Program-made: the position numbers and the translations under genes | The notes under the pieces: generated by a model | The model's input: the letters and a program-made list of their open reading frames with translations, nothing else | Database searches by the model: none | What the model was told of the DNA's origin: nothing | Origin: Streptomyces sp. CA-210063 | GTDB taxonomy: Bacteria; Actinomycetota; Actinomycetes; Streptomycetales; Streptomycetaceae | DNA length: 64,000 nt | Direction of reading: 5' to 3' | NCBI RefSeq assembly: GCF_024612015.1 | Contig: NZ_CP102512.1 | Coordinates: 9,114,001-9,178,000 of the forward strand | Shown: in pieces, positions 35,750-54,783 of the stretch | Numbering within the stretch: the stretch's first letter is position 1 | Layout of the letters: each line of letters begins with the position of its first letter

Positions 35750-35750
35750 C

Positions 35751-36010
35751 CGTTCCTAGAGACTGAGTGGGAGTGAGTCCTGTTGCCAGGACTCGCGCTC
35801 AGCCGAACGCCCCGGACGGTGTTAAGCGTTCTGGTTGCCCGCGTTCACTCCGCTTCCGGGCGGCACGGATCGTGTCCGTGGTCCGGGAATGCGGGGGCGG
35901 ATTCCCTCACGCCCGGGAACACGCCGGCCGGCCTGGACGATCCGATGCCCCTGCTCATCACTCCGGTGAGCAGGGGGCGGTGCCGTCCGTCGCCGGATCG
36001 GGTGTCCCTG
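35751..36010 (-). ncRNA. Putative tnpB right-end (omega/re) RNA scaffold, copy A
   Basis: About 260 bp that is an inverted, diverged copy of 51710-51970. It corresponds to the extreme 3' end of a tnpB gene plus element end. A 10-bp hairpin (35948-35957 with 35967-35976) and a 6-bp hairpin (35864-35869 with 35875-35880) are both kept in the other copy by paired base changes. The element end is at GGAACGG; the next bases on this strand, TTACTCGGGAGCCCGCGCGA, would be the guide. They match the flanking hydrolase gene because that is where the element sits. Confidence 0.6.
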
Positions 36011-36597: not shown

Positions 36598-37185
36598 TCA
36601 GGTACGGGACGCGTCGGCCGGGTTGTGGCGCCGGTAGTAGCGGGCGACGCGGGTCCGGTTGCCGCAGCGGGTGGGGGAGCACCAGCGGCGGCGGGGGTGT
36701 GACGACAGGAACACCATGACGCAGTCGTCGGCCTCGCACTCCTTGAGCCTGCCGATCGCGGGGGCGCTGAGCATCTCGGCAGCGGCCTCGGCCAGCAGTG
36801 CGGCGAGGCGGGTGCCGAGGGGGCCGGTGCGGCGGGAGATGGCGGTGACCGCGGTGCCGTCCCAGCCGAGTTCCCGGACAGATGGTGCCGCACGCTGGGC
36901 CTCGGTGAGTCCGCCCAGGGCGGACCCGGGGGGTTCGGTTTGGTCCAACAATGCCCGGACGGCGGCTTCGGTATGTGCTCGGACGGCGTGGACGGGGGCG
37001 AGGTCGGCCCGGGTCGGTGCGGTGTCCCGGACCTCTCCCTGGAGGCGGTCCCCCTCCAGGGTCAGCCAGTCGGACAACTGCCGCGGGGTGGCGAGCAGAT
37101 CCACGCGCCCGTGGGCCCCCACTGGGCGGGTGTTGACCAAGTCCAAGGCCAGGACCTCGCCGGTCAGCGGTGCACTGTCAGTCAT
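36598..37185 (-). CDS. CGNR zinc-finger regulator (ABATE domain)
   Basis: 195 residues. The N-terminal ABATE domain (EVLALDLVNTRPVGAHGRVD, LLATPRQLSDWL) is followed by a C-terminal zinc finger CEADDCVMVFLSSHPRRRWC, then SPTRCGNRTRVARYYRRH with the defining CGNR. Such proteins are small stress or ligand-responsive regulators. It is divergent from the alpha/beta-hydrolase gene at 37270, and the gap holds palindromes suited to a shared operator. Confidence 0.92.
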   Translation of the reverse strand: MTDSAPLTGEVLALDLVNTRPVGAHGRVDLLATPRQLSDWLTLEGDRLQGEVRDTAPTRADLAPVHAVRAHTEAAVRALLDQTEPPGSALGGLTEAQRAAPSVRELGWDGTAVTAISRRTGPLGTRLAALLAEAAAEMLSAPAIGRLKECEADDCVMVFLSSHPRRRWCSPTRCGNRTRVARYYRRHNPADASRT

Positions 37186-37269
37186 GCCCTAATGCTACAT
37201 CGCGCACTTGACGCGTTAGTCGCAGCGAGGTTAGTACTAATGCATCTTTGCGCTAAGGAGGCATGTGAT
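37186..37269. promoter_or_regulatory. Divergent control region with TTAGTACTAA palindrome
   Basis: Between the CGNR gene and the hydrolase gene lie a perfect palindrome TTAGTACTAA (37231-37240) and two CTAATGC copies (near 37190 and 37237). These are unusually AT-rich for this genome and fit an operator of the CGNR protein. Confidence 0.5.
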
Positions 37270-38163
37270 ATGACGTCCGCGACACCGCCCCGCATCGCTG
37301 TTCCGGCCCGGACCGTCCACCGGTTCGTAGAGGTCGATCAGGTGGAGGTCTTCTACCGGGAGTCCCTACCCGAGCGTCCCGACGCCCCGGTGGTGCTGCT
37401 CCTGCACGGCTTTCCCTCCGCCTCGCACCAGTACCGTCGCCTCATCGACACCCTCGGCCGCCACTACCGGCTCATCGCCCCCGACTACCCGGGCTTCGGA
37501 CACACCCGCACCCCGGACGGGTTCACCTACTCCTTCGAGCGGCTCGCAGATGTCGTCGAGCGCTTCACCGAACGCCTGGCCCTGACCCGCTTCGCCATGT
37601 ACCTCTTCGACTTCGGCGCCCCCGTCGGCTTCCGCCTGGCACTCCGCCGCCCGGATCGTGTCGCGGGCCTGGTCGTGCAGAACGGCAACGCATACGCCGA
37701 GGGGCTGTCGGAGGCGGCCCGCGAGTTCACCGCCCTCACCCCCGACACCCCCGGCGCCGACCAGGCCGTCCTCGACCTGTTCACCCTGGACGCCACACGC
37801 GCCCAGTACGAGGGCGGCACCGCCGACCCCGAACTGATCGCCCCCGAGGGCTGGCTGCTCGACCAGCACTTTCTCGACCAGCCCGGCCGCAAGCAAGCGC
37901 AGCGCGCGCTTGCCTACGACTACAAGAGCAACATCGCCGCCTACCCCGACTGGCAGGCGTGGCTGCGCAAGCACAGGCCGCCGACTCTGATCACCTGGGG
38001 CAGCCGCGACCCGTTCTTCCCCGAACCCGGCGCGCTTGCCTACCTTTCCGACCTGCCGGACGCCGAACTTCACCTGTTCGACACCGGTCACTTCGCCCTG
38101 GAGGACCACTTGCCCGAAATCGCCCCGCTGATTGCCGACTTCCTCACCCGCACCTGGGCCTGA
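37270..38163 (+). CDS. Alpha/beta hydrolase with Asp nucleophile (epoxide hydrolase/dehalogenase-like)
   Basis: 297 residues from ATG 37270 with AAGGAGG 8-9 nt upstream; longer frames lack this. The oxyanion motif LLHGFPSASHQYR, the nucleophile elbow LFDFGAPVGFRLA (Asp instead of Ser) and the terminal DTGHFALEDH place it with epoxide hydrolases and haloalkane dehalogenases, which form an ester on Asp. It is probably controlled by the divergent CGNR regulator and may detoxify a reactive compound that the regulator senses. Confidence 0.88.
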   Translation: MTSATPPRIAVPARTVHRFVEVDQVEVFYRESLPERPDAPVVLLLHGFPSASHQYRRLIDTLGRHYRLIAPDYPGFGHTRTPDGFTYSFERLADVVERFTERLALTRFAMYLFDFGAPVGFRLALRRPDRVAGLVVQNGNAYAEGLSEAAREFTALTPDTPGADQAVLDLFTLDATRAQYEGGTADPELIAPEGWLLDQHFLDQPGRKQAQRALAYDYKSNIAAYPDWQAWLRKHRPPTLITWGSRDPFFPEPGALAYLSDLPDAELHLFDTGHFALEDHLPEIAPLIADFLTRTWA

Positions 38164-39495: not shown

Positions 39496-40137
39496 TCAGA
39501 CCTTGCCCGCGGCGAAGGCCGCCGCCGCGTCCGCGTTCGCCCGGTAGCTCAGGTGCGCGCCCGTGTCGCCCCCGCCGTTCTCGCAGACGGGGTCGCCGGC
39601 CGCGCAGAAGTCGATGGTGCGGCTCTGGTAGGTGCCGGTGACGCTCTTGCCGATGGCCCGGATCGGGTTGCCGAACAGCAGCACCGCGGCGACCTTGGGT
39701 TCGAGCGCGGCGGGAATGGTGGCCACGATGGGGCTGCCGACCACCGCGCCGGCGCTGCTGATGCCGATGGAGTTGTCGACGACGTTCGCGCCCTGCGAAT
39801 AGCCGACCAGGATGAAACGCTGGTTCGGGCAGGAAGCGGCCTGGCTCCTGACGTGGTTCACCAGGTCCCTGTTGCCCTGCGCGGCCGAGGTGAGGGAAAG
39901 GTCCGCGGGATAGTTCACCTTGTAGCTGGACAGTGATTTGCCCGTGATTTTCTTCTGCAGCGCGGAATACACGGGGTCGCCGACGATGAAGCCGAGCGTG
40001 CCCGGCTCGAAGGTGCCGCGAGCCGCGACGACGTCGATGTCCGTGCAGGCCGCGGCGGCGGCCGTGGGTGCCGAGACGGTGGCCAGTCCGGCCCCGCCGG
40101 CCAGGGAGAGTGCGGCGAGGCACAAGCGGATACGCAT
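39496..40137 (-). CDS. Secreted cutinase-family esterase
   Basis: 213 residues from ATG 40137 with AAAGGA upstream. Signal peptide about 1-27 (ends TAAAAA). The mature protein has CTDIDVVAARGTFEPG, the nucleophile FILVGYSQGANVVDNS, and the disulfide/Asp region IDFCAAGDPVCENGGG then HLSY, the Ser-Asp-His set of family CE5. It would hydrolyse cutin, acylglycerols or other lipid esters. In mycobacteria a cutinase-fold protein (Rv3802c) is part of the mycolate locus; here one lies three genes from a Pks13-like synthase. Confidence 0.93.
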   Translation of the reverse strand: MRIRLCLAALSLAGGAGLATVSAPTAAAAACTDIDVVAARGTFEPGTLGFIVGDPVYSALQKKITGKSLSSYKVNYPADLSLTSAAQGNRDLVNHVRSQAASCPNQRFILVGYSQGANVVDNSIGISSAGAVVGSPIVATIPAALEPKVAAVLLFGNPIRAIGKSVTGTYQSRTIDFCAAGDPVCENGGGDTGAHLSYRANADAAAAFAAGKV

Positions 40138-40274
40138 GGGGATCCTTTGAGGGTGGGGCGCGTGGAGCGCCTGCGGAAAAGGACGTCCCGAAGGTATTCG
40201 CGTTGTTGGACCGGGTGTTATGGACGGGAATTCAGTAATCGATTTTCTTTTTGCGCAGAGGTGAGTCTGTTTCC

Positions 40275-41519
40275 TTATGTGGTTCCTTGTGCGGTGAATG
40301 TGTCGTCGTCCCGCAACGCCTCCGCGCGCAGGGCGAGGATGAGGTCCAGGCGGGTGCCCGGGTCGTGCAGGGCGTCGCCGAAGAGCTTCTCCAGCTGGCG
40401 CAGGCGGTAGCGGACCGTCTGTGGGTGGATGTGGAGGCGGGCGGCGACATCGGGCACGTTGCTGCCGCCGAGCAGCCATGCCAGCAGGGTCTCGGCGAGC
40501 CGGCCGCGCGGCCCCTCCGCGACCGTGTCCAGCGGGGCCAGGACCCGCAACCGGAGCTGGTCGAGCATCGGTTCGTCGCTGTGCAGCAGCAGCGTGGAGA
40601 GATGGTCGGCGCAGCGCACCACCCCCTGCCGGGGCAGGATGCCGCGCCCCATGAGGCCGAGCGCGCGGGTGGCCCAGCGCAGCGAACGGGCGGCCTCGGC
40701 GAGGGGGACCGTCGGCCCGATCGCGGCGGGCCGGCCGCGCAACGCGAGCGTGAACGCCCGGCCGCCGAAACGGCCGGAACCGTCCGGGTCGGGCACCAGC
40801 ATCCGCGGGGGCCGCGACTCCATGTCCACCAGCGCCCCCGCCGCCGCCAACGGCCGGTCCGCCTCCCGCTGGTCCGGGGTCGCCGCCAGCGCGACCACCG
40901 CGACCTGCCTCGGCACCGACCACCGGGCGCCGTGCGCCAGATCCCGCACCGCCTCCGGGGCCACCGGCCCCTCGCCCAGCAGCAGATCGAGCAGCCGTCT
41001 GCGCCGCCGCTCCAACTCGTCCGTGCTGCGCAGCTGGGCCTCCGCGTATCCGGCGGCGGCCGCCTCGGCCACCTCGTGCACCGTCTGGAACGCGAGTTCG
41101 CCGAGCGCCGCCACCACCGAGGAGTCCAGGCCCAGTGCCTCCGCCGTACGGCCCATCAGCCGCCAGGCGTGCAGTCCCCCGACCCGTAACGCCGACTGCA
41201 ACGCGTCCAGGGCACGGCCCTCCAGGGCCTCGCCGCGCCCGAGTTCGTAGTACGTGGCGGTGATCGCGGCCCCCTGGCCGCGCGGATCGGCGATGTGGTC
41301 GACGAACAGGGTCAGCGCCTGTACGACCCCGGATCTGAGGTGCGCGAGATACGTCCCGTCGGCCGGGCGGGCGTACTCCGGGACCTGTCTGCGCACCTCC
41401 TCCTCCACCTCGTCGGCGACGGCCTCCAGCTGATCGCGCAGCAGCTTGGCCAGTTCGGGAGGCACGGGGGCGGCGCCGGGGCCGTCCGGTACGCCGTGCG
41501 GCGGGGTGGGGGCAGCCAC
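40275..41519 (-). CDS. PucR-family transcriptional regulator
   Basis: 414 residues from a GTG at 41519 behind AAAGGAGG. The C-terminal HTH_30 region LLAWLLGGSNVPDVAARLHI, HPQTVRYRLRQLEKLFGDAL and DPGTRLDLILALRA identifies PucR/CdaR-type regulators. The N-terminal half (LLRDQLEAVADEVEEEVRRQ) is helical. It lies between the cutinase and Ag85-type esterase genes on the same strand and is the likely local regulator of the lipid locus. Confidence 0.92.
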   Translation of the reverse strand: MAAPTPPHGVPDGPGAAPVPPELAKLLRDQLEAVADEVEEEVRRQVPEYARPADGTYLAHLRSGVVQALTLFVDHIADPRGQGAAITATYYELGRGEALEGRALDALQSALRVGGLHAWRLMGRTAEALGLDSSVVAALGELAFQTVHEVAEAAAAGYAEAQLRSTDELERRRRRLLDLLLGEGPVAPEAVRDLAHGARWSVPRQVAVVALAATPDQREADRPLAAAGALVDMESRPPRMLVPDPDGSGRFGGRAFTLALRGRPAAIGPTVPLAEAARSLRWATRALGLMGRGILPRQGVVRCADHLSTLLLHSDEPMLDQLRLRVLAPLDTVAEGPRGRLAETLLAWLLGGSNVPDVAARLHIHPQTVRYRLRQLEKLFGDALHDPGTRLDLILALRAEALRDDDTFTAQGTT

Positions 41520-41641
41520 GGCGGACCCTCCTTTCACCCGGAAGCGGCTCACCCGCGGGCTGGTGCCCGTGGGATGAGGGGCAAGTCCTGGGTTGGACGG
41601 ACGTCCCCTGCGCTCCGTTCCGTGCCCCGACGGCACCGGCC

Positions 41642-42712
41642 TCACGCCGGCACCCCCAGCGCACCCGCGAGCATCGGCCACGACGCGCCGAACTCCCGCT
41701 TCCAGTAGGCCCAGCTGTGCCCTCCTCCCGCGTAGAAGTGGGTCGTCACCGGGACGCGCAGCAGCGCCAGCGTGTTCGTGAACGCGTGCGCCGACGGCCA
41801 CAGCGCGCTCTCCAGCGCCTCCGGCAACCAGTCGCCGGTCCCGCCCACCACCCCGCTGCCGCTGGACACGTACAGGGCGGTGCCGCGCAGCCCCGCCGCG
41901 CGGTACCGCGGATTGAAGTCCCGCCAGGTGAGCAGATTCAGGATCGGGTTGCCCCACAGGGACAGGGGCGCCAGGTTCTCGCGGGCCACGATGGCGTCCA
42001 TCAGGCTCGGCACACCGGGTGCCGTGGTGTCGAGGATGCCGCTGTACGAGGCCGCCGCCGCGAACGCCCCCGGATGCCGTGCCGCGTGCGCCATCGCTCC
42101 GTAGCCGCCGGTGGACACCCCGGCGACGACCTGGACCCCGGACGCCCGGTAGTTCCGGGCGAGCAGTGCCGGGACCTCGGCGAGCTGGAACGTCTCGTAG
42201 TCCGGGCCGTTCCGCCAGGCCGTGGGTATTCCGGTGGGCCCCGCGTCCGGCATCGCCACGATCAGCTCCCGGCCCTCCGTGAACGCCACGATGTCCGTCT
42301 CCCGGGTCCAGGACGTGTAGTCGTCGTGGGCGCCGTGGAGGAGATACAGCACGGGGTACTTCCGGCCCGGCTGCGTGCCGAAGGAGGAGGGGAGGACCAG
42401 CCGCACCGGTGCGTTGCGTCCCAGGGCGGCGGAGGGGAGGGAGACGTCGAGGGTACGGGGGCCGAGGCGGGTGACGGTTTCTGTGGCTGTGACGGTTTCT
42501 GTGGCTGTGGCTGTGGCTGTGGCTGCGGTGGCCTGGCTGGTGGTGGTCCGGCTGGTGGTGGTCCGGCTGGTGGTGGTCCGGGCGGTGGGCGCCCGGCGGG
42601 TGGCCGCGCCGGCGGTGCCGGTGGCTGTGGCGCCGAAGAGGGCGGCCAGGCCGGTGGCGGCGGCCGTCCTGGTGACGGCGCGGCGGGACATTCCGGTGGT
42701 GCGGTCGGACAT
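41642..42712 (-). CDS. Antigen-85/esterase-D-type secreted acyl esterase
   Basis: 356 residues. A Tat-like signal (SRRAVTRTAAATGLAALFGA) precedes a Thr-rich linker with repeated TTTSR and TATATE units (about 40-85). The PF00756-type alpha/beta domain then has KYPVLYLLHGAHDDYTSW, the nucleophile VVAGVSTGGYGAMAHAARHP and the C-terminal HFYAGGGHSWAYWKREF. The family includes mycolyltransferases (Ag85) and formylglutathione/trehalose-ester hydrolases. It is encoded 22 bp after the Pks13-like gene, as mycolyltransferase genes cluster with pks13 in mycobacteria; transferase activity is inferred only. Confidence 0.85.
   Translation of the reverse strand: MSDRTTGMSRRAVTRTAAATGLAALFGATATGTAGAATRRAPTARTTTSRTTTSRTTTSQATAATATATATETVTATETVTRLGPRTLDVSLPSAALGRNAPVRLVLPSSFGTQPGRKYPVLYLLHGAHDDYTSWTRETDIVAFTEGRELIVAMPDAGPTGIPTAWRNGPDYETFQLAEVPALLARNYRASGVQVVAGVSTGGYGAMAHAARHPGAFAAAASYSGILDTTAPGVPSLMDAIVARENLAPLSLWGNPILNLLTWRDFNPRYRAAGLRGTALYVSSGSGVVGGTGDWLPEALESALWPSAHAFTNTLALLRVPVTTHFYAGGGHSWAYWKREFGASWPMLAGALGVPA
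42475..42582. repeat. Short tandem repeats coding the Thr-rich linker
   Basis: Units of GGTTTCTGTGGCTGTGAC and CTGTGG are followed by three copies of the 15-mer CTGGTGGTGGTCCGG. Both lengths are multiples of three, so expansion or loss would change linker length without breaking the frame. Confidence 0.8.
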
Positions 42713-42734
42713 GGCGGCTCTCCTCGGATCGGGT

Positions 42735-45700
42735 TCAGCGGGTGCCCCTGGCGAGCTCCCGCCGCAGATGGGCGGCGATCTCGTCGACGTACGGCGGGTC
42801 GAGCAGCGACAGATGGTGTCCCGCGACCCGGACGACGGAGAGGTCCGGGCACACCTCGTCCCAGCCGAGCGCCTCGTCGTCCCGCTCGTACGCGGGGTCG
42901 CGCACGGTGTGCGGGGCGGGCTCGGTGGCCCGGTAGAGGACCACTCGCCCGTCGTGGCGCCCCGGCCGGTGGGCCTCGCCGATCCTCAGGTCCAGATAGG
43001 AGGACCGTTGGTGATCGAGGGCTGCCCGTGGCACGTCGGCCGCCTCGCGCAGGGCCCGCAGTACGGTGTCGACGCGCTCGCCGTCGTCCTCCATGGCGGC
43101 CAACTCGTCGTACGGCACCGCCAGTTCGACCCCGTAGGTGTCGGCGACATGCCGGGCGAAGCCCGTGAAGTGCGCGCGGATCCGGTCGGCCGGTGTGCCT
43201 TCTGTCCGGGGGAGCGGCCGTACGGAGTCGATGAGCACCACCAGATCCACGTCCCGCCCGGCCGCCGTGAGCTGCCGTGCGGCCTCCTGCGCGACGAACC
43301 CCCCGAACGACCAACCGCCCAGCAGACAGGGCCCGTCGGGCTGAACAGTGGCGACCGCCTCGGCGTAACGGCGCGCCCTCTCGGCGACCGTACGGGCCTC
43401 TTCGAGCCGCTCCAGCCCGTACACCGGCCGCTCCCCGCCGAGGCGTTCCACGAGGGGCCGGTAGACGTCGGTCGTGCCACCGGCGGCGTGGACGAGGAAG
43501 AGCGGGGGGTGGGGGCCGGTGGGGTGAAGGGGGCGGAGTGAGGGAGGGGGGCCGGAGGTGTGCAGGGACTGGAGCGGAGGATTCTCGACCGGCGCTGGCT
43601 GCGGCTGCGGGCCGGTGCCCCTGCGGAGGGCTCCTGCTGCCCCTGTCATGGCTTCCTCGCCCGGCGCCCGTGGTGCTCCCGAGGGGGAGTACCCGCCGGG
43701 CGCCTTCGTGGGCCGCGTGAGTCGGGCGCCGCCGGCCGCCGTCGCCCTGACCGGCAGCGCCTGCTGGATGCGGGCCGCCGTGTCCTCGACCGTGGCGGCG
43801 CCCAGCAGATCGCGCAGGGGCAGTTCGATGTCGAACTCGCGTTCCAGCGCGGCACGGATGCGGACGGCCATCAACGAGTCCAGGCCCAGCGCGGCGAAGG
43901 CCGTGGCCGGGGTGATGCGGGCCGGCGGATGGCCGGTGACGGCGGCGATGTGGTGACAGAGGCGGGCGGAGACCGAGGCGTCCTCCGCCACGCGGCGCGC
44001 TTCCGGCCCGTGCCCGCCTTCCCCTCCGGCGGGGCCCTTCTCCGGCCCGTGCCCGCCGCCCACCCCGGCGCGGCCGGCCTCCGACCCGTGCCTGTCGGCC
44101 ACCACGTGGCCCCCCTCCGGCACAAGGCCCCCCGCCACTCTCGCCGTCGCCGAGCCCGCCGCCACGCCCCCCGCCCGTCCATCCGTCCACCAATGCCGCA
44201 CATGCCGCCAGCGCGGTGCGGGCAGGTCGATGACGCGGCCCGGCGGTCGTGGCAGGCGTAACCCGGCGGTGTGGAGCGTGCCGAGGCGCGTGAGGAAGTC
44301 GGCGGAGGTGTCGGCGTCGCGGTGGAGGGTGCCGAGGGCGAGGACGCCGGGGGCGGTGTCCGTGATGGCTCGGGTCAGGACCGGGTGGGGGGAGAGTTCG
44401 ACGAACGCGGTGTGGCCGTCGGCGGCGGCAGCGGCGACGGCCCGGTCGAGGCGTACCGGCCGCCGCAGGTTCGCGACCCAGTGCGCGGCGTCGAAGACGC
44501 AGTCGCCCCGTGGGTCGTCCAGCACGGTGGAGTAGACGGGGATCCGGGGGCGTCCTCCTCGGATGTCCGCCAGCGAGTCGGCCAACTCGGGGAGCAGTGG
44601 CTCTACTTGGGGGGAGTGCCCCGCCCCGACCACCCGCATCGCACGCGCGGTCCGCCCCTCCTCTTCCAGCCGACGCACCAGCCCGGCCACCGCGGTCTCC
44701 TCCCCGGTGACCACTTTCTGGCCGGGGGAGGAGTGGACGGCGACGTGGACTTCGGGGAAGTCCCGTACCAGGGCGTCGAGTTCGCCGTCTTCGAGGTCGA
44801 CCACCGCCATCGCCCCGCCCCGCAGCCCGCTGAGCAGCCGGGCCCGTACGGCGACCACGCGGGCCGCGTCCGACACCTCCAGCGCGCCCGCGCACACCGC
44901 GGCGGCCACCTCGCCCAGAGAGTGGCCGATGACGGCGACGGGCTCCACGCCGTGCGCCCGCCACAGCTCGGCGAGCGCCAACTGGAGCCCGAAGAGGACA
45001 GGTTGGGCGATCTCCAGGCGGTCGAGGTCGCCGCCGGACGCCAGATGGTCGTACAGGGAGAGACCGCACTCGGGCGCCAGTCGCGCGTCCAGCTTCTCCA
45101 CGGCCGCGGCGAAGGCGGGTTCCTCGGCCAGGAGCCGCCGCCCCATGCCGGCCCACTGGCTGCCGTACCCGGAGAACACCCACACCGGGCCGCGCCCGAC
45201 GAGGTCCCGGTCGCCCGTCATGACCGCCGTGTGGGGGCGGCCTCCCGCCAACGCGCCCAGCCCGTCCACGAGTTCGACGCGGTCACGGGCGACGACCGCC
45301 GCGCGTACCGGTCCGCGTCCCGCGCGCCCCGCCAGTGTGCGGGCCACGTCGGCGGGGTGCGTGGCGCTTCCCTCGGGCGTGCCGAGCCAGTCGGCCAGCC
45401 GGGCGGCGGTGTCGCGGACGCGGGAGGCGTCGGTGTCGGAGAGGAGGTGGAGGCGGGCGGGGGGTTCGTCGGCCGGGGGCGGGAGCAGGGCGCCGGGCCG
45501 CCATTCCTCCAGTACGGCGTGGGCGTTGGTGCCGCCGAACCCGAACCCGGAGACCCCGGCGGTGGCCGTTCCGCCGTACCGGGGCCACGGCTCGGCCTCC
45601 GTCACGACCCGCAGCCGTACGTCGTCGTCCAGGGCGCTGCCTTCGGTGCAGTGCAGCGAGGGCGGGATCAGGTCGTGGTGGAGGGCGAGCACCGTCTTCA

Positions 45701-47060
45701 CCAGGCCGGCGACGCCCGCGGCGGACTCCAGGTGGCCGAGGTTGCCCTTGACGGAGCCGAGAAGCAGCGGCTGGTCGGGGTCGCGGCCCGCGCCGAGCAC
45801 GGCGCCGAGCGCACCCGCCTCGATGGGGTCACCGAGCGGGGTGCCCGTGCCGTGCGCCTCGACGTGGTCGATGTGCGTGGGGGAGAGTCCGGCTCGGGCG
45901 TAGGCGGTCGTCAGAAGGGCCTGCTGGGCCGTCGGGTTGGGCGCCAGGAGGCCGTTGGAGCGGCCGTCGGAGTTGACGGCGGTGGCGCGGATGACGGCGA
46001 GGACGCGGTCGCCGTCCCGCTCGGCGTCGGACAGTCGCTTCAACAGCACGGCCGCGCAGCCCTCGCCACGGCCGATGCCGTCGGCCGCCGCCGAGAACGG
46101 CTTGCACCGCCCGTCCGGCGCGAGCGCGCCCGCCCGCCGGAACGCGACGGTGACCGTGGGCGAGAGCAGCAGATTGACCCCGGCGGCGATCGCGAGGTCG
46201 CTCTCCCCCGTGCGCAGGCTGACGCACGCGTGGTGCACGGCGACCAGCGACGACGAGCACGCGGTGTCGACGGCCATGCTCGGCCCCCGCGTGTCCAGGA
46301 CGTACGCCAGCCGGCCCGCCGCCACGCTCAGCGCCCCGCCCGCCGGCGCCCAGGGATCGACGGCCGCCGGGTCGGCGCCCGTGAGCTGGCCGTACTCAGG
46401 CGCGGAGACCCCGACGAAGACACCGGTGGCGCTGCCGGCGAGGGACGCGGCCGGAACGGCGGCGTGGTCGAGGGTCTCCTGGACGACCTCCAGGAGAATC
46501 CGCTGCTGCGGGTCCATCACCGCCGCCTCGCGCGGCGTGATGCGGAAGAAGTCCGCGTCGAACCCGGCGATGTCGTCGAGGTAGCCGCCGTACGGGAGCG
46601 CGTCGGCGGGCGGGTACGGCGTGAAGTCCCGCCACCGGTCCTCCGGGACCCGCCGGATCGCGTCGACGCCCTCGCACAGCGACCGCCAGTACTCCGCCGG
46701 GCCGTGCACGCCGCCGGGCAGTCGGCAGCCGACCCCGACGACGGCGATCGGTTCGCCGGGCGTGGGTGCGGGCGCCATCGAGGGAGGGGCCGCGACCCCC
46801 ACCGGAGCCGTCGTACCGCACAGCCGCGCCACCAGCGCATCCCCCGTGGACGCCTCCCACAGCAACGTCGCCGGCAGCTCACGGCCCGTCGCCCGGGACA
46901 ACTCCCCGGCCAGCACGACCGCGTCCCGCGAGGACATCCCGAGATCCGCGAGCGGCCGGTCCATCGGCACGTCCCCGACGGCCGTACCGCTCCAGGCGGC
47001 CACCTGCTCGGCGATCAGCCGCCGCAACGCGCGCGCTTCGTCGTCCCCCACCACCCTCAT
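42735..47060 (-). CDS. Pks13-like type I polyketide synthase, ACP-KS-AT-ACP-TE
   Basis: 1441 residues. ACP1 (about 8-85, Ser44 in LGMSSRDAVVL), ketosynthase (about 103-520: Cys268 in DTACSSS, His403 in HGTGT, His443 in GNLGH), acyltransferase (about 625-905: Ser714 in GHSLGE), ACP2 (about 1030-1100: Ser1062 in LGLDSLMAV), Pro-rich linker, thioesterase (about 1185-1440: Ser1251 in GGWSFGG). No ketoreductase, dehydratase or enoylreductase. This is the architecture of mycobacterial Pks13 (about 1730 residues), which condenses an AMP-activated fatty acid with a 2-carboxyacyl chain to an alpha-alkyl beta-keto ester. The AT reads GAGHSPQV where malonyl or methylmalonyl ATs read HAFH or YASH. Coupled by 4-bp overlap to the FAAL gene. 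Confidence 0.92.
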   Translation of the reverse strand: MRVVGDDEARALRRLIAEQVAAWSGTAVGDVPMDRPLADLGMSSRDAVVLAGELSRATGRELPATLLWEASTGDALVARLCGTTAPVGVAAPPSMAPAPTPGEPIAVVGVGCRLPGGVHGPAEYWRSLCEGVDAIRRVPEDRWRDFTPYPPADALPYGGYLDDIAGFDADFFRITPREAAVMDPQQRILLEVVQETLDHAAVPAASLAGSATGVFVGVSAPEYGQLTGADPAAVDPWAPAGGALSVAAGRLAYVLDTRGPSMAVDTACSSSLVAVHHACVSLRTGESDLAIAAGVNLLLSPTVTVAFRRAGALAPDGRCKPFSAAADGIGRGEGCAAVLLKRLSDAERDGDRVLAVIRATAVNSDGRSNGLLAPNPTAQQALLTTAYARAGLSPTHIDHVEAHGTGTPLGDPIEAGALGAVLGAGRDPDQPLLLGSVKGNLGHLESAAGVAGLVKTVLALHHDLIPPSLHCTEGSALDDDVRLRVVTEAEPWPRYGGTATAGVSGFGFGGTNAHAVLEEWRPGALLPPPADEPPARLHLLSDTDASRVRDTAARLADWLGTPEGSATHPADVARTLAGRAGRGPVRAAVVARDRVELVDGLGALAGGRPHTAVMTGDRDLVGRGPVWVFSGYGSQWAGMGRRLLAEEPAFAAAVEKLDARLAPECGLSLYDHLASGGDLDRLEIAQPVLFGLQLALAELWRAHGVEPVAVIGHSLGEVAAAVCAGALEVSDAARVVAVRARLLSGLRGGAMAVVDLEDGELDALVRDFPEVHVAVHSSPGQKVVTGEETAVAGLVRRLEEEGRTARAMRVVGAGHSPQVEPLLPELADSLADIRGGRPRIPVYSTVLDDPRGDCVFDAAHWVANLRRPVRLDRAVAAAAADGHTAFVELSPHPVLTRAITDTAPGVLALGTLHRDADTSADFLTRLGTLHTAGLRLPRPPGRVIDLPAPRWRHVRHWWTDGRAGGVAAGSATARVAGGLVPEGGHVVADRHGSEAGRAGVGGGHGPEKGPAGGEGGHGPEARRVAEDASVSARLCHHIAAVTGHPPARITPATAFAALGLDSLMAVRIRAALEREFDIELPLRDLLGAATVEDTAARIQQALPVRATAAGGARLTRPTKAPGGYSPSGAPRAPGEEAMTGAAGALRRGTGPQPQPAPVENPPLQSLHTSGPPPSLRPLHPTGPHPPLFLVHAAGGTTDVYRPLVERLGGERPVYGLERLEEARTVAERARRYAEAVATVQPDGPCLLGGWSFGGFVAQEAARQLTAAGRDVDLVVLIDSVRPLPRTEGTPADRIRAHFTGFARHVADTYGVELAVPYDELAAMEDDGERVDTVLRALREAADVPRAALDHQRSSYLDLRIGEAHRPGRHDGRVVLYRATEPAPHTVRDPAYERDDEALGWDEVCPDLSVVRVAGHHLSLLDPPYVDEIAAHLRRELARGTR

Positions 47061-48805
47061 CCCACGACCCCCGCCGCATAGGCATCCGCCAGATACCGCT
47101 CACGGGTCAGTGCCCGCGACACCTTCCCGCTGGACGTACGGGGCACGGTGCCCGGCGGGACGAGGACGACATCGGAGAGCCGCAGCCCGTGCCGGGCCGA
47201 GACGGCCGCGCGTACGGCCCGCACCAGGGCCGGCACGTCGATCTCGGCGAGAGGAACCGCCCGTACATGTTCCGCGACGACGACCACCCGTTCCCCGGAG
47301 CCGCCGGGTACGCCGAACGCGGCGAGCCGGTCGCGTCGTACGGCCGGATGCGCGTCCTGGGCGGTGGCCTCGACGTCCTGCGGGTAGTGGTTGCGCCCGT
47401 CGACGACGATGAGGTCCTTCAGCCGCCCGGTGACGATCAACTGCCCGTCCAGCACCGTCCCCAGGTCGCCGGTCCGCAGCCACGCGCCCGGACCGGCCGC
47501 CGCATCGGCGAACTCGGCGCCGAAGACGAGCCCGGTCTGCCGGTCCTGGTTCCGGTAACCCCGCCCCACGTTGGGGCCCTGCACCCAGATCTCGCCGACC
47601 TCGCCCTCCGCCGGCGCGACCCGCGACACCGGATCGGCGATCCGCACCCGCTGCCCCGCCGGAGCGCCGCAACCGGACAGCAGCACGGCCCTCGGATCGT
47701 CGGGCCGCGCGGGCAGGGCCTTCCCGGTGGCCAGGGCGTCACGGTCGAGCGCGAATCGCCGCAACGGCTCCCCGGGCCGCGCGGCACTGACGAAGACGGT
47801 CGCCTCCGCCAGCCCGTACGACGGGCAGTGCGTCTCCGGGACGAGGCCCTGCGCGGCGAACGCGGCGTGGAAACGGTCGGCCGTGCCGGGGCGGACCGGC
47901 TCACTGCCGTTGATCAGCGCGAAGACGCCGTCCAGCCGCAACCCGGCCTTCTGCGCCTCGGTGACCGTCGACGCGCAGTAGTCGTAGGCGAAGTTGGGCG
48001 CCGCGCTCAGCGCGCGCGGGTGCGCGGCCAGCAGCCGCAGCCAGCGCACCGGCTCGTGCAGAAACGCCACCGGATCCATGAGCACCGACAGCAGCCCCCG
48101 CACCACCGGCGCCGCGACACTCAGCACCAGCCCCATGTCGTGGTACAGCGGCAGCCAGCCCACACAGGTCACCGGATGCGCGTCGGCCCCGTACGCGGCC
48201 AGCGCCTGACGGGCGTTGGCGACGACATTGGCGTGGGTGATCTCCACGCCCGCCGGGGTGCGGGTCGAGCCGGAGGTGTACTGGAGATAGGCGACCGCGC
48301 TGTCGTCGGGAGCGGGCGGCAGCCAGTCGTCGGCGGCGGCGTCGGGCACATGGTCCCCGGCGACGACCTTCACCGCCCGGCCCTCGCACAACTCCCGTAC
48401 CCCCGCGAGGGCGTGACCTGTCGTCACGACGACCGCCGGGCGCGCGTCGGCCAGGACCGCCGACAGCCGGTCGCCCTGCCCGGGCAGCCCGGGCGGATAC
48501 AGCGGTACGGCGACCAGGCCGGCGGCGAGCGCCCCGAGGAAGGCGGTGACGTACTCCGTTCCCTGCGGACACAGCACCGCGACCCGTGCCCCGGGCTCCG
48601 CCTCCGTGGCGAGCCGGGCGGCCACGGCCCGCATACGCAGGTCCAGCCGGCGCCAGGTCAGCGTGCGGTGGACGCCGCGCGAGTGCGGCGCGGGATGGTC
48701 GACGAAGGTGAACGCCCGGCGGTCGGGGGTGGTCTCGGCCCAGTGCCGCACATACTCCGGCAGACTCCGGAACACGGGCGCGAGCGGGGGGCGGCGGCTG
48801 TCCAT
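47057..48805 (-). CDS. Fatty acyl-AMP ligase (FAAL, FadD32-like)
   Basis: 582 residues from ATG 48805. Adenylation motifs LQYTSGSTRTPAGVEITHAN (P-loop), GWLPLYHDMGLVLSV (a FAAL hallmark), CPSYGLAEATVFVSA, WLRTGDLG and GRLKDLIVVDGRNHYPQDVE, with the C-terminal Lys in RTSSGKVSRA. FAALs activate fatty acids as acyl-AMP and load them directly on an ACP, here presumably the N-terminal ACP of the adjacent synthase. An out-of-frame ATG just upstream is ignored. The stop overlaps the PKS start (ATGA), indicating coupled translation. Confidence 0.93.
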   Translation of the reverse strand: MDSRRPPLAPVFRSLPEYVRHWAETTPDRRAFTFVDHPAPHSRGVHRTLTWRRLDLRMRAVAARLATEAEPGARVAVLCPQGTEYVTAFLGALAAGLVAVPLYPPGLPGQGDRLSAVLADARPAVVVTTGHALAGVRELCEGRAVKVVAGDHVPDAAADDWLPPAPDDSAVAYLQYTSGSTRTPAGVEITHANVVANARQALAAYGADAHPVTCVGWLPLYHDMGLVLSVAAPVVRGLLSVLMDPVAFLHEPVRWLRLLAAHPRALSAAPNFAYDYCASTVTEAQKAGLRLDGVFALINGSEPVRPGTADRFHAAFAAQGLVPETHCPSYGLAEATVFVSAARPGEPLRRFALDRDALATGKALPARPDDPRAVLLSGCGAPAGQRVRIADPVSRVAPAEGEVGEIWVQGPNVGRGYRNQDRQTGLVFGAEFADAAAGPGAWLRTGDLGTVLDGQLIVTGRLKDLIVVDGRNHYPQDVEATAQDAHPAVRRDRLAAFGVPGGSGERVVVVAEHVRAVPLAEIDVPALVRAVRAAVSARHGLRLSDVVLVPPGTVPRTSSGKVSRALTRERYLADAYAAGVVG

Positions 48806-48945
48806 CGGGCATGGCTCCTCACGTCGCGGGGACGGCTTGCGGTCAGAGCGGGCAGAGCGAGTCGGCGGGGGTTGGGCCGGTGGACCGGTTGCCAACATCC
48901 CTGTCGGGAGGGTGAGTTGGGCCGGACCCGGCGATCCGGAACCGG

Positions 48946-50556
48946 TCAGAGCGGGATGTTGCCGTGGCGGCGCTCCGGCATCGGGGCCCGCTTGCCGCGC
49001 AGGGCCCGCAGGGCGCGGCAGAGGTGGGCGCGGGTGTCGCGCGGGGCGATGACGGCGTCGACGTAGCCGCGCTCGGCGGCGAGGTACGGGGTGCCGTACG
49101 TGCTCTCGTACGCGGTGACGAGGCGGGCGCGGAGCGCCTCGGGGTCGGCCGCGGCGGCGAGTTCGCGGCGGTGCAGGACGCCCACCGCGCCCTCGGCGCC
49201 CATGACGGCGATCCGGGCGGTGGGCCAGGCGAGGTTGATGTCGGCGCCCAGATGCTTGGAGCCCATCACCGCGTACCCGCCGCCGTACGCCTTGCGCACC
49301 ACCACCGTGATCTTCGGGACGGTCGCCTCGGCGTACGCGTACAGGAGTTTGGCGCCGCGCCGGATGATGCCGGCCTGCTCCTGGCGGACGCCCGAGAGAT
49401 AGCCCGGTACGTCGGCGAAGGTCAGCAGCGGGATGCCGAACGCGTCGCAGAACCGTACGAACCGCGCGGCCTTCTCGGACGCGTCGATGTCGAGGACCCC
49501 GGCGGCGTGCGACGGCTGGTTGGCGACGACGCCGACGGAGGCGCCCTCGACGAGCGCGAACGCGCAGATGATGTTCGGCGCGAACAGCTCCTGGACCTCC
49601 AGGAGTTCACCGTCGTCGACGACCGCGCGCAGGATGTCGCGCATGTCGTAGGCCTGCCCGAGCCGGTCCGGCACCACCGTGTCGAGACACAGCCCGGCGG
49701 GCGCGGCCCCCGGCGCGTACTGCGGCGGCCGCTCCAGGTTGTTGGCAGGCAGGTACGACAGCAGGTCGCGTACGGTGTCGAGGGCGTCCACCTCGTCGGC
49801 TGCGAGGAAGTGGGCGTTGCCGTTGACGGTGTTGCTGGTGCGGGCGCCGCCCAGCTCCTCGGCGCTGGTGCGCTCGCCGGTGACCGTCTCGATGACGTCG
49901 GGCCCGGTGACGAACATGTGCGAGGCGCCGTCCACCATCACGGTGAAGTCGGTGATGGCCGGAGAGTACGCGGCTCCGCCGGCGCACGGGCCGAGGACGA
50001 CCGAGATCTGCGGGATCACGCCGGACGCCCGTACATTGCGGCGCACCAGCTCGGCGTAGAGGGCGAGCGAGGTGACGCCCTCCTGGATACGGGCGCCGCC
50101 GCCGTCGTTGAGCCCGATGACCGGACAGCCCGTCTTCAGGGCGAGGTCCATCAGCGCGATGGTCTTCTCCCCGAAGGCCTCGCCCATGCTGCCGCCGAAG
50201 ACCGTGGCGTCCTGGGCGAAGACACAGACGGGCCGGCCGTCGATCGTGCCGTGCCCCGTGACCACCCCGTCGCCGTACGGGCGCCCGCCGCCGTCACCGG
50301 TGGGCCGGGCCCGCACGAACAGACCCGTCTCGGTGAACGAGCCCGCGTCCAGCAGCAGATCGATCCGCTCCCGGGCGCCGTACTCCCCCCGTCTCCTCGG
50401 CCCGTTCGGGGCAACCGCCCGCAACCGGCGGCTCTCCAGTTCGGTGATGCGGTCGGCGGTTCGGTCGACGGTTCGTCCGGCGATCGGGTCGGGCACACGG
50501 CCGGCCGCCCGCTCCGCCACCTGCCTCGCCCGGGATGTCGTCACCTCTAGTGTCAC
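48946..50556 (-). CDS. Acyl-CoA carboxylase carboxyltransferase (AccD-type beta subunit)
   Basis: 536 residues from a GTG at 50556 with GGAGG 5 nt upstream. Both crotonase-like halves are present: [60 protein letters not shown] and [20 protein letters not shown]; then [20 protein letters not shown] and [20 protein letters not shown]. It transfers carboxyl from biotin to an acyl-CoA alpha carbon. No biotin-carrier alpha subunit is adjacent, so it must share one. Next to a Pks13-like synthase and FAAL it matches AccD4, which makes the carboxyacyl extender. Confidence 0.94.
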
Positions 50557-50794
50557 AGCCACCTCCGAAGTGGCTTCCGAATATGGCAGCGCCGGAGGGG
50601 CGGTCCGGGTCAATCACCGTTCTGTTTGCGGGAGATGAGTCCTGCGGGGCCGGTGTTCGTCCGTGGGTGACAAGGGCTCGGGCGTGACACGGGGCGTTCC
50701 GGACGTATGGCTGTGATCGTGCTTCATTTGACCTTTCAACGATGCCAGGATCGCCGCGCCCGCGCACGCCCCACCGTCCTCGAAAGGCATCGAC

Positions 50795-51472
50795 ATGCGC
50801 AGCCGACTCGCGTTCCTCGCCGCCGTCACGGCCTTCCTGACCACGGCCACGGCCACGGCACCGGCGTACGCCAGTGTCCGGCCCGGCGTCACCTACTCCG
50901 GCGAGGGCACCTTCTACGGCGCGACCGGCGTCGGCAACTGCCTCTACGACGCCACGAGCGACATCGCCATCGCGGCCCTCAACCACACCGACTACGAGGG
51001 CTCCCGGATGTGCGGGGCCCACCTCCACGTCAAAGGACCTCGGGGCGAGCTCACGGTGAAGATCGTCGACCGCTGCCCGGAGTGCGCCCCCGGAGACGTC
51101 GACCTCGGCCAACAGGCCTTTGCCCGCATCGCCGACCCCGTGGCCGGCCGGGTGCCGATCACCTGGACCCTGGTGAGCCCGGACATCGGCGGCCCGGTCG
51201 CCTACCGCTACAAGGAGGGCTCCACACAGTGGTGGTGCGGCATCCAGGTCCGCAGCCACCGCAACCCCGTCGCCACCCTGGAGGTCCGCACCGGCACGAC
51301 CTGGCGTCAACTGCCCCGCCAGGAATACAACTACTTCGTCTCGGCCGACGGCACCGGCTGCGGCTCCGACATCCGCGTCACCGACATCCACGGCCAGACC
51401 CTCACCGACACCGGCATCACCATCACCCCGAACGTCGACCAGCCGGGCCGCGCCCAGTTCACGAAGCGCTGA
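50795..51472 (+). CDS. Bacterial expansin-like secreted protein
   Basis: 225 residues. Signal peptide about 1-26. Domain 1 is a double-psi beta-barrel (GEGTFYGATGVGNCLYDATS, KIVDRCPECAPGDVDLGQQA with the conserved Asp, AFARIADP). Domain 2 (ITWTLVSPDIGGPVAYRYKE, WWCGIQVRSHRNPVATLEVR) is like CBM63. Expansins loosen cellulose or pectin networks without hydrolysis. It fits with the pectin, mannan and galactan enzymes in the window. It is transcribed away from the carboxylase gene. Confidence 0.9.
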   Translation: MRSRLAFLAAVTAFLTTATATAPAYASVRPGVTYSGEGTFYGATGVGNCLYDATSDIAIAALNHTDYEGSRMCGAHLHVKGPRGELTVKIVDRCPECAPGDVDLGQQAFARIADPVAGRVPITWTLVSPDIGGPVAYRYKEGSTQWWCGIQVRSHRNPVATLEVRTGTTWRQLPRQEYNYFVSADGTGCGSDIRVTDIHGQTLTDTGITITPNVDQPGRAQFTKR

Positions 51473-51586: not shown

Positions 51587-51970
51587 TTCGCCGTGGACCC
51601 CGCCTACACCAGCCGTTGGGGCGCCCAGCACTGGCAGAAGCCCCTCACCAGCACCACCCGCACCACCACTCGCCACGACGCGGCAGCCGTGGCGATCGGA
51701 AGGCGCGCCCAGGGACACCCGATCCGGCGACGGACGGCACCGCCCCACGACGACCGGAGTGATCGTCGTGGGCATCGGACCGCCCAGGCCCGACCGGGCG
51801 TCCCTGGGCGTGAGGGAACCCGCCCCCGCATTCCCGGACCACGCACCAGATGCGTGCCGCCCGGACGCGGAGCGAACGCGGGCAACCAGAACGCCCAACA
51901 CCGTCCGGGGCGTTCGGCTGAGCATGAATCCTGGCAACAGGACTCACTCCCGCTCAGTCTTCAGGAACGG
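51587..51970 (+). pseudogene. tnpB C-terminal remnant (copy B)
   Basis: The frame reads AVDPAYTSRWGAQHWQKPLT, TRHDAAAVAIGRRAQGHPIR, RRTAPPHDDRSDRRGHRTAQ, VPPGRGANAGNQNAQHRPGR and SAEHESWQQDSLPLS. The DPAYTS motif is that of the last RuvC-like acidic site of Streptomyces tnpB/OrfB proteins. The stop normally expected near the end has been lost, so the frame reads through into the aminotransferase region. Everything N-terminal is deleted. The end GGAACGG is 8 bp before the aminotransferase ATG. Confidence 0.7.
51710..51970 (+). ncRNA. Putative tnpB right-end (omega/re) RNA scaffold, copy B
   Basis: A diverged inverted copy of 35751-36010. A 10-bp hairpin (51744-51753 with 51763-51772) shares its 9-nt loop CCGGAGTGA with copy A, but five of its ten pairs differ, each change compensated. 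A 6-bp hairpin (51840-51845 with 51851-51856) also shows a compensated pair. A candidate guide, TGTGGGCATGGACATCGACG, follows the element end. Whether it is transcribed is unknown. Confidence 0.6.
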
Positions 51971-51977
51971 TGTGGGC

Positions 51978-53289: not shown

Positions 53290-54783
53290 GTGGTGAACGC
53301 AGAGGTCATCGTGGTGGGGGCGGGACTGTCCGGGATCGGTGCCGCCATCAGGCTGCGCCAGGAGGGCATCCAGGATGTGCTGATACTGGAGAGAGCACCG
53401 GAGGTGGGCGGCACCTGGCGGGAGAACACCTACCCGGGCTGCGCGTGCGACGTCCCGTCCTCGCTGTACAGCTACTCCTTCGCACCGAACCCGGACTGGA
53501 GCCGGGTCTTCGCGGAACAGCGGGAGATCCACGACTACGTGCGGACGACCGCGCGGCGGCACGGTATCGGCCCCTCGCTGCGCTGCGGCGTCGACGTCGA
53601 ACGGGCCCGGTGGGACGACCGGGAACAGCGTTGGCACCTGGAGACGAACGAAGGCCCGTACAGCGCCGCCGTACTCGTCCTGGCGACCGGCCCGTGGCGG
53701 ACCCCACTGCGGCCCGACGTACCGGGCCTGGGGGAGTTCGACGGACCGGTGCTGCACACCGCGCGCTGGGACCCCTCGGTCCGGCTGACCGGACGGCGGA
53801 TCGCCGTCGTGGGCGGCGGTGCCTCCGCGGTGCAGATCGTTCCCGCGATCCAGGAGCAGGCCGCCGCCGTACACGTCTTCCAGCGCACCGCCCAGTGGCT
53901 GCTGCCCAAGCCCGACCACGGCATCCCCGGCTGGCTCCGCGCGCCGGGCACGCAGCACCTCTTGCGGGCCGCCCAGTACCGGCTCCAGGAAGGCCTCGGC
54001 TACGCCTTCCGCCACCCCCGGCTCGTACGACCGGTGGAGGCGGCTGCCCGAGCCCACCTGCGCATGGCCGTCCGGGACCCGCGACTGCGCCGGGCGCTCA
54101 CCCCGGACTACCGGCTGGGCTGCAAACGGCTGCTGACATCGAGCACGTACTACCCCGCGCTGACCCGCCCCCACGTCCACCTTCACCCGACCGCCCTGGC
54201 CGAGGTGCGGGGCAACCGGGTCGTCGGCGCCGACGGCAGTGAGGCCGAGGCCGATGTGATCGTCCTGGCGACCGGCTTCCACATCGGCGAACTGCCCCTC
54301 GCCCGGGGCGTGCACGGCGCACACGGCCGTACGCTCCAGCAGACCTGGGACGACGACGGACCCGAGGCCTATCTCGGCACCAGCGTCAGCGGCTTCCCCA
54401 ACCTCTTCCTGCTCCTGGGGCCGAACGTGCTGGCCGGCTCCACCTCCACGCTCACCGTGGTCGAGGGCCAACTGTCCTACCTCACGGCCGCGCTGACCCA
54501 TCTGCGCGCCACGGGCGACACCTCGCTGGACGTACGGCCCGCCGTACAGGCCCGCTACAACGCGGCGGTCCAGGACGCGCTGCGCACCACCGTCTACAAC
54601 TCCGGCGGCTGCTCCAGCTATTACTTCAGCCCCAGCGGGCGCAACACGTTCTGCTGGCCGTGGTCCACCGGGCGCCTCATCCACCGTCTGAACCGCTTCG
54701 ATCCGGACGCCTACACCTGGACGGCACCCGCGCACGCCCCGGAGCGGCTCCGCCCCGTGAATGAGGAAGAGATCACCGCATGA
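53290..54783 (+). CDS. Flavin monooxygenase, type I Baeyer-Villiger-like
   Basis: 497 residues, GTG start at 53290 or 53293. FAD Rossmann VIVVGAGLSGIGAAIRLRQE, the family phrase GGTWRENTYPGCACDVPSSL, the fingerprint FDGPVLHTARWD (FxGxxxHxxxW) and a second Rossmann RRIAVVGGGASAVQIVPAI for NADPH. The enzyme should insert oxygen into ketones or N/S-oxidise. Its stop overlaps the start of a truncated Rieske gene (ATGA at 54780), so the two once formed a coupled oxygenation pair. Confidence 0.93.
   Translation: MVNAEVIVVGAGLSGIGAAIRLRQEGIQDVLILERAPEVGGTWRENTYPGCACDVPSSLYSYSFAPNPDWSRVFAEQREIHDYVRTTARRHGIGPSLRCGVDVERARWDDREQRWHLETNEGPYSAAVLVLATGPWRTPLRPDVPGLGEFDGPVLHTARWDPSVRLTGRRIAVVGGGASAVQIVPAIQEQAAAVHVFQRTAQWLLPKPDHGIPGWLRAPGTQHLLRAAQYRLQEGLGYAFRHPRLVRPVEAAARAHLRMAVRDPRLRRALTPDYRLGCKRLLTSSTYYPALTRPHVHLHPTALAEVRGNRVVGADGSEAEADVIVLATGFHIGELPLARGVHGAHGRTLQQTWDDDGPEAYLGTSVSGFPNLFLLLGPNVLAGSTSTLTVVEGQLSYLTAALTHLRATGDTSLDVRPAVQARYNAAVQDALRTTVYNSGGCSSYYFSPSGRNTFCWPWSTGRLIHRLNRFDPDAYTWTAPAHAPERLRPVNEEEITA

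Follow-up and report, generated by a model that had tools for sequence, protein, structure and literature searches.

We analysed a window of 64,000 nucleotides (the whole stretch of DNA considered here) from Streptomyces sp. CA-210063. It covers 9.114–9.178 Mb of a single-contig genome of 10.86 Mb. The subject is an operon on the minus strand whose six genes encode, in the 5'→3' direction, an acyl-CoA carboxylase subunit (AccD), a fatty acyl-AMP ligase (FAAL), a type I polyketide synthase (PKS) resembling Pks13, a secreted esterase, a PucR-family regulator and a cutinase. The closest relatives of the locus are found in Streptomyces. An initial annotation, made from the sequence alone, had named the same six genes at 39496..50556 and taken them for a mycolate-type condensation system. 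All six are present as listed there, but the AccD frame reaches 50613. The ATG of the PKS gene overlaps the FAAL stop codon by 4 bases, as had been noticed. The features are given below, with positions counted from the first nucleotide of the window.

48946..50613, minus strand: AccD, acyl-CoA carboxylase carboxyltransferase (PF01039, 603 bits); start uncertain, homology from about 50493
47057..48898, minus strand: FAAL (best NCBIfam model NF004509); start uncertain, conserved start probably 48805
42735..47060, minus strand: Pks13-like type I PKS of 1441 aa, with the order acyl carrier protein–ketosynthase–acyltransferase–acyl carrier protein–thioesterase (ACP-KS-AT-ACP-TE; Pfam, PDB, NCBIfam)
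46791..47060, minus strand: N-terminal ACP with LGMSSRDAV (motif at residue 40, starting at 46943)
45486..46760, minus strand: KS, catalytic Cys and two His motifs intact (Pfam, motifs, KS tree)
44259..45185, minus strand: AT with GHSLGE and GAGH, the latter at 44627 (Pfam)
43767..43964, minus strand: C-terminal ACP with LGLDSL (Pfam, motif)
42750..43505, minus strand: Pks13-type TE with GWSFGG and later D and H motifs (Pfam, TE tree)
41642..42712, minus strand: secreted esterase of mycolyltransferase fold with GVSTGG and HSWAYW (PF00756); twin-arginine-like leader, by eye
40275..41537, minus strand: PucR-family regulator (PF13556, 67.7 bits); start uncertain
39496..40137, minus strand: secreted CE5 cutinase (PF01083, 139.9 bits; Sub1 primer mapping)
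50632..50673, minus strand: promoter-region block upstream of AccD, with TTGTCAC and GGACTCA-like elements 31 bases apart

A Pfam scan of the synthase recognised a ketoacyl synthase, an AT, two PP-binding stretches and a thioesterase, and found in it no ketoreductase (KR), dehydratase (DH) or enoylreductase (ER) domain. The domain order, the LGMSSRDAV motif and the lack of reductive domains agree with the earlier description, and by this architecture the protein belongs to the wider Pks13 type. Its catalytic motifs are intact: LGMSSRDAV, DTACSS, EAHGTGT, KGNLGH, GHSLGE, GAGH, LGLDSL and GWSFGG. Among solved structures Pks13 is the best match with 847 bits, against 680 bits for mycocerosic acid synthase. 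The best NCBIfam model is NF040607, mycolic_Pks13. Because the score of 1194.8 bits lies below the cut-off of 2100 of this model, the synthase is, judged by its sequence, a relative of Pks13 and not Pks13 itself.

Related loci were found with the PKS. In all, 88 relatives were confirmed by a scan that favours close relatives; 80 of them were kept and gave 76 loci, 60 of them from Streptomyces records. Three types are distinguished: S is this Streptomyces form, mid has an S-like synthase without KR, and long has the order ACP-KS-AT-(DH)-KR-ACP-TE. The partner genes were located with HMMER. All 44 S-type Streptomyces loci that span 23 kb or more of DNA, that of the window among them, hold the six genes in an identical order on a single strand. 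Since order and strand never change, the arrangement is more than chance. When all 60 S-type loci are counted, those truncated by contig ends included, FAAL, esterase, PucR and cutinase genes are each found in 56 and AccD in 55; two of the 60 (L051 and L057) are pieces of one strain. The block upstream of AccD is kept in 55/55 S-type upstream regions, when up to 1 and 4 mismatches are tolerated for its two elements, with a spacing of 31 bases in 53 and 32 in 2.

Two features that seem to tie the synthase to Pks13 were rejected as evidence. The SSRDA motif of the N-terminal ACP is not specific to Pks13, as it is shared by PpsA-type synthases (FAAL-primed mycobacterial enzymes, a label inferred from architecture). 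Raw KS similarity proves no kinship either: the KS gives 480–513 bits with PpsA-type, 433–480 with Pks13 and 478–574 with long-type domains. Because PpsA-type scores equal those of Pks13, a wider outgroup was used for the KS tree. The KS phylogeny had been named in the initial annotation as one test that could refute its reading, and the KS passes it, since it does not fall among modular starters. In the tree of 53 selected rows (7 S-type, 5 mid-type, 17 long-type, 8 Pks13, 4 PpsA-type, 12 other), the S, mid, long and Pks13 domains form one clade (97/93), the PpsA-type is next (100/99) and the 12 other PKS lie outside. The TE tree agrees. Its 40 rows (7 S, 5 mid, 16 long, 7 Pks13, 5 other) place the same four groups in one clade against the five other TEs (96/99), and a quick tree with nine other TEs gives the same grouping. 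In the best trees Pks13 lies inside the family. The approximately unbiased (AU) test also allows Pks13 as outgroup (p 0.328 for KS, 0.325 for TE), as well as a non-reducing clade made up of S, mid and Pks13 (p 0.347 and 0.20).

The TE domain also served as a probe in genome surveys. It matched 53/295 Streptomyces genomes at E≤1e-35. Sorted by hand, the Streptomyces matches comprise 40 at ≥391 bits (S), 9 at 278–337 bits (mid) and 10 at 210–235 bits, nine of which lie in frames of 2236–2764 aa and one in a frame of 1292 aa; some genomes hold two matches. A survey of the class gave matches at E≤1e-30 in 60/394 genomes: 35 from one family (f4), 6 Streptomyces and 19 from three other families (10, 8 and 1). 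In a draw of 396 genomes from the phylum, the matches were 3 Streptomyces and 14 f4. The Pks13 model cut-off is passed by 34 of the 35 TE-matching f4 genomes, and the remaining one (G345) reaches 2012.9 bits with a split frame. Genome G232 also passes, but by summing neighbours within a frame of 5697 aa. The survey with the Pks13 model scored two candidates per genome, so its misses mean little; the TE surveys scored 6 to 8. Two findings lead us to infer that f4 represents the mycolic-acid bacteria: its Pks13 matches, and the fact that Corynebacterium glutamicum is the sole control genome that matched. The surveys make a TE of this type a specific mark of Pks13 and its relatives.

We also assessed which extender unit the system may use. 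The AT motif is GAGH in 56/56 S-type rows. Among 32 Pks13 rows (one of the 32 Pks13/AccD4 rows, L129, repeats L081 from the same genome) it is GASH in 24 and GAGH in 8. PpsA-type ATs have VASH (3) or VAPH (1), and 17 other ATs have YASH (6), HAFH (4) or mixed motifs, with GAGH or GASH in none. YASH goes with methylmalonyl, HAFH with malonyl and xAGH with larger units. For the carboxyltransferase, PMC5187497 reports that Asp421 of PccB restricts chain length, that its change to Ala admits longer chains, and that enzymes for at most 4 carbons are recognised by a Phe at the MccB-161 site. The MccB 161 site was set on our alignment by eye from the Tyr157-Gly161 spacing in that paper. The AccD of the window carries Val at the site of MccB Gly161 and Ala at the site of PccB Asp421. 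Val and Ala recur in 54/55 S rows, the other having a gap at the Ala site. AccD4 rows have Gly/Ala (31/32) or Ser/Ala (1/32), so Ala stands at the 421 site in all 32, and long-type rows have Gly/Ala (8/9) or Val/Gly (1/9). The window AccD has the Ala of the AccD4 pocket pattern, with Val instead of Gly at the other site. The PccB-like copy of the same genome has Phe/Asp. On the strength of the GAGH motif and the Val/Ala pocket, the candidate extender is a bulky 2-alkylmalonyl unit, to which both signatures point.

These signatures bear on one alternative, in which the synthase is an ordinary FAAL-primed PKS of secondary metabolism with malonyl- or methylmalonyl-type extension, and the neighbouring esterases are unrelated. 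The SSRDA-like motif and the high KS similarity shared with PpsA-type synthases would suit it. However, the KS and TE trees and the AT and AccD signatures oppose it, no further module or tailoring gene was seen by eye in the conserved block, and an esterase of mycolyltransferase fold is constantly present. We consider this alternative very improbable.

The six best NCBIfam models of the FAAL are all FAAL models (442–549 bits), headed by NF004509, fatty-acid--AMP ligase, with 548.7 bits. The best model named for a CoA ligase, NF005850, gives 293.8 bits, so the protein is nearer to FAAL than to acyl-CoA ligase models. The closest solved structures are 5d6j and 5icr (named acyl-CoA synthase there) with 429 bits, against 397 for FadD32 (5hm3) and 395 for FadD23. 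The enzyme had been likened to FadD32, but its place in the FadD32 clade is not supported: the FadD32 equivalog model NF038339 gives 508.4 bits against a cut-off of 975, and the FAAL tree, whose root is weak, puts FadD32 apart with PpsA-type FAALs between.

The esterase does belong to the Ag85 fold (PF00756), as had been noticed. Its best solved relative is PS1 (110 bits, E 1.3e-30), followed by an esterase (73), Cmt1 (59), esterases at 57–48 bits and Ag85C (47). PS1 is a mycolyltransferase. Judged by sequence, the match to PS1 and the active-site motifs GVSTGG and HSWAYW make the protein a putative mycolyltransferase by fold relationship and active site. We searched five genomes, its own and four of f4, for similar proteins. 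Its next match in its own genome has 44.7 bits. In three of the four f4 genomes the best matches (108–139 bits) lie within about 10 kb of Pks13; the fourth (79 bits) lies away from it. In a quick tree, rooted on one paralogue and with four repeated rows, 23 of the 24 rows on the mycolyltransferase side cluster together, next to the esterases of the loci studied here. Every subtype retains the esterase next to its synthase, in the long type in 37/40 loci and in the mid type in 10/10.

Taken together, the results make it reasonably probable that the product of the operon is an alpha-branched lipid, formed through a Claisen condensation of the mycolate type. The FAAL would adenylate a free fatty acid and transfer it to the N-terminal ACP. 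Together with a biotin carboxylase subunit whose gene lies elsewhere, AccD would carboxylate a medium- or long-chain acyl-CoA to 2-alkylmalonyl-CoA, and the AT would place this unit on the C-terminal ACP. The KS would then condense the two chains, releasing CO2 and leaving an alpha-alkyl beta-keto acyl thioester. The Pks13-type TE may transfer the chain to an acceptor, by analogy a sugar, or release it by hydrolysis, and the secreted esterase may shift it between cell-surface acceptors or cleave it off. In the long relatives, the in-line KR would convert the keto group to the beta-hydroxyl of the true mycolic motif. For the operon described here, the best reading of the product is an alpha-alkyl beta-keto acyl chain that would be transferred or trimmed extracellularly by the esterase.

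Several observations weigh against this assignment. The synthase scores below the Pks13 cut-off, its KS is at least as similar to PpsA-type domains as to Pks13, and the FAAL tree does not group the enzyme with FadD32. The best solved relative of AccD is PccB, with 698.7 bits against 514.7 for a chain named D4, which we took as AccD4, and the AccD tree gives no clear branching among S-type, long-type and AccD4 rows. The AT motif varies in the relatives: 40 long ATs have GAGH (31), AAGH (4), GGAH (3) or GAAH (2), nine being other than GAGH, and 10 mid ATs have GAGH (5), AAGH (4) or TAGH (1), five being other than GAGH. Plain esterases rank between PS1 and Ag85C in the list of structures. By eye, the conserved S-type block contains no KR and no MmpL gene. 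The MmpL absence says little, since 26 MMPL matches lie elsewhere in the genome. To our knowledge, mycolate-type lipids have not been reported in Streptomyces. The mycolate-type condensation system originally proposed is partly supported: the KS and TE trees agree with it, and the AT motif and AccD pocket fit a bulky extender. A FAAL of the FadD32 clade, a cutinase equivalent to Rv3802c (see below) and an assignment to Pks13 proper are not supported.

The fate of the chain is the weakest step of the proposed pathway. The synthase might free an alpha-alkyl beta-keto acid by hydrolysis, which would either decarboxylate to a long-chain ketone or serve as a small secreted lipid. In that case the esterase would be a plain hydrolase, and nothing would be attached to the envelope. 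This fits the lack of a reductase domain in the synthase and of a reductase among the conserved genes, which agrees, for the genes listed here, with the initial remark that the window shows no mycolate-type reductase. Excerpts of PMC2568869 describe an M. smegmatis mutant lacking the reductase, in which free alpha-alkyl beta-oxo acids decarboxylate to ketones. However, in the same mutant the unreduced beta-oxo chains are still esterified to trehalose and the cell wall (PMC2568869, in excerpt), so a missing reductase is compatible with attachment to an acceptor. The Pks13-type TE and the esterase beside the synthase in all subtypes also speak against release as a free acid, which we regard as unlikely.

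The last gene of the block had been likened to Rv3802c. As a counterpart of Rv3802c the cutinase was rejected: the Culp6 model NF050160 gives 23.7 bits against a cut-off of 570, and primers published for Sub1 of S. scabies map to the gene in close relatives. These primers fit six loci, S. europaeiscabiei and S. caniscabiei among them, with at most 2 mismatches each and 558 bp apart. On the window cutinase the forward primer has 1 mismatch; the reverse primer does not fit within 2 mismatches. A primer match in the mid-type locus L207 was rejected, as it lies outside any cutinase. By primer mapping, a comparison with the two published primers, the cutinase is a predicted orthologue of Sub1 from S. 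scabies. Excerpts of PMC7104285 and PMC5158115 describe Sub1 as a suberin-inducible enzyme that breaks down cutin and suberin. Because of this orthology and the action of Sub1 on both polymers, the cutinase is most likely a polyester-degrading enzyme whose inducing conditions are known in a relative.

The operon as a whole could serve the use of plant polyesters. During growth on plant matter, fatty acids released by the cutinase from suberin or cutin would be converted by the FAAL and PKS into a lipid for storage or for the cell surface, or into a signal. The Sub1 orthology and suberin induction, and a cutinase in 44/44 S-type loci with at least 23 kb, agree with this idea, which can hold together with an alpha-branched product. 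Against it, a cutinase over threshold occurs in 0/10 mid loci (L210 has a frame of 96 aa with 82 bits at its edge) and in only 4/40 long loci. A comparison aimed at an operator element common to the operon and the cutinase did not establish one: 9/54 regions upstream of the cutinase and 16/55 upstream of PucR exceed the 95% level of shuffles. In the papers cited, to which the look for expression data was confined, none for the PKS genes were found. A role of this kind seems to us improbable, to about the same degree as free-acid release.

The system is wider than the initial annotation saw, as forms with an in-line KR exist. Long forms occur in Amycolatopsis, Saccharopolyspora, Planomonospora, Streptosporangium, Planobispora, Bailinhaonella, Wenjunlia, Parafrankia and some Streptomyces. 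Pfam scans of four long synthases detected in each a KS, an AT, a DH-type stretch, a KR, an ACP and a TE; the N-terminal ACP appears in three of the frames as given. The 40 long loci (KS identical in L066/L118 and in L073/L115) hold an esterase in 37, MFS in 30, FAAL in 23, PucR in 21, MMPL in 12, AccD in 10, LIP lipase in 6, cutinase in 4 and biotin carboxylase in 1; their flanks differ in length, so a gene may sit beyond the edge. The MMPL, MFS, LIP and biotin carboxylase labels were confirmed by Pfam on one example each. The 10 mid loci, in which L209 repeats L055, hold FAAL and esterase in 10, MFS in 8, PucR in 7 and AccD in 1, with a synthase without KR. A KR cofactor or YA[AG]AN motif is found in 38/40 long frames. 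The DH motif HxxxGxxxxP follows the KS in 11/40, in some perhaps by chance. In two Amycolatopsis loci (L061 and L077), MMPL, MFS, FAAL, a KR-bearing PKS, AccD, esterase, LIP lipase and cutinase lie within about 16 kb, the fullest mycolate-like gene set seen here outside f4.

According to excerpts of a cryo-EM study, Pks13 has an inactive dehydratase-like domain (DH*) after the AT (PMC11649247). A profile of DH* was built on 30 Pks13 rows; compared with the DH region of 36 long-type rows, it gave a match of 96.7% probability spanning 119 columns. Subsets of the long type gave 69.0, 95.5 and 94.9%, and the Streptomyces long types 0.1%. Controls gave 1.3, 0.6 and 0.4%, each from a set of only 2–3 PKS rows, and another DH might match equally. 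In the AT-ACP linker of 16 S-type rows no DH* remnant was found (hhalign 0.1%). As the DH* profile matches the long-type DH region, a descent of Pks13 from a DH-bearing form would fit.

Further features lie around the operon. An inverted repeat of 268 nt, 87% complementary (35749-36016 and 51704-51971), has its arms 15.7 kb apart and encloses the whole operon. A transposase DDE-domain frame (PF01609; 38699-39547) adjoins the cutinase, and beside it lies an alpha/beta hydrolase gene (36940-38163). The transposase and hydrolase genes separate the cutinase from a gene at 34004-35749, whose counterpart directly follows the cutinase in many relatives. The product of this gene is probably secreted, has no Pfam match and is kept in 40/44 S-type loci with at least 23 kb. 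Divergent from AccD, 50795-51472 encodes an expansin EXLX1-family protein (NF041144, 261 bits, cut-off 100), a further plant-wall-related gene. At 54780-55871 a Rieske domain match is limited to residues 39-93, and by eye the frame looks shortened.

Mycolic acids are treated as a mark of one bacterial order, where they are a main drug target. The related operon occurs in about one seventh of the Streptomyces species sampled (40/295 genomes with a strong TE match). Together with the KR-bearing long forms, it would supply outgroups for tracing how the mycomembrane arose, could perhaps account for the unusual DH* domain of Pks13, and would point to a class of lipids, so far undescribed, in bacteria that are well studied and easy to work with. 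The link to suberinase suggests a growth condition relevant to the operon. A broader picture, put forward tentatively and as a whole rather doubtful, would be that mycolate-type lipids extend beyond the mycolic-acid bacteria. A FAAL–synthase–esterase family spanning Streptomyces, Amycolatopsis, Saccharopolyspora, Planomonospora, Streptosporangium relatives and Parafrankia would make surface alpha-alkyl beta-keto or beta-hydroxy lipids. Pks13 would be the branch that lost in-line DH and KR, with DH* as remnant, and the Streptomyces pathway would be coupled to suberinase and fed by fatty acids from plant polyesters.

Lipstatin is a known Streptomyces product with an alpha-branched beta-hydroxy acid from two condensed fatty acyl chains; it is made with FabH-type ketosynthases and without a Pks13-like synthase. 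In searches of the open-licence literature, no described counterpart outside mycolic-acid bacteria was found among the matches listed. For Sub1 of S. scabies, whose primers map to both gene ends in six relatives, the excerpts of the papers mention no link to a PKS operon. The esterase shares with PS1/Ag85 mycolyltransferases the fold family, the GxSxG and HxWxYW motifs and secretion, but its identity to the best f4 matches is 34–36%, and 23/24 such rows form their own clade. PpsA-type synthases resemble the synthase in the N-terminal ACP and SSRDA-like motif, and differ by a KR, the AT motifs VASH or VAPH and a terminal TE of this family, which was not found in them. The closest described system is the Pks13/FadD32/AccD4 locus of Mycobacteriales. 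Both have a FAAL, a KR-less ACP-KS-AT-ACP-TE synthase, AccD and adjacent esterases of mycolyltransferase fold (L129, L130), and both share the KS and TE clade, the AT motif GA[GS]H and Ala in the AccD pocket. In contrast, the Streptomyces operon has a rearranged order (AccD-FAAL-PKS-esterase-PucR-cutinase), a synthase of 1441 aa below the Pks13 cut-off with a linker without DH* remnant, an AccD nearer to PccB overall, a FAAL that its tree does not place in the FadD32 clade and a host not known for mycolates. The long-type synthases belong to the same KS and TE clade; they differ from the S type by having a KR and a DH region, and MFS (30/40) and MMPL (12/40) transporter genes are often nearby.

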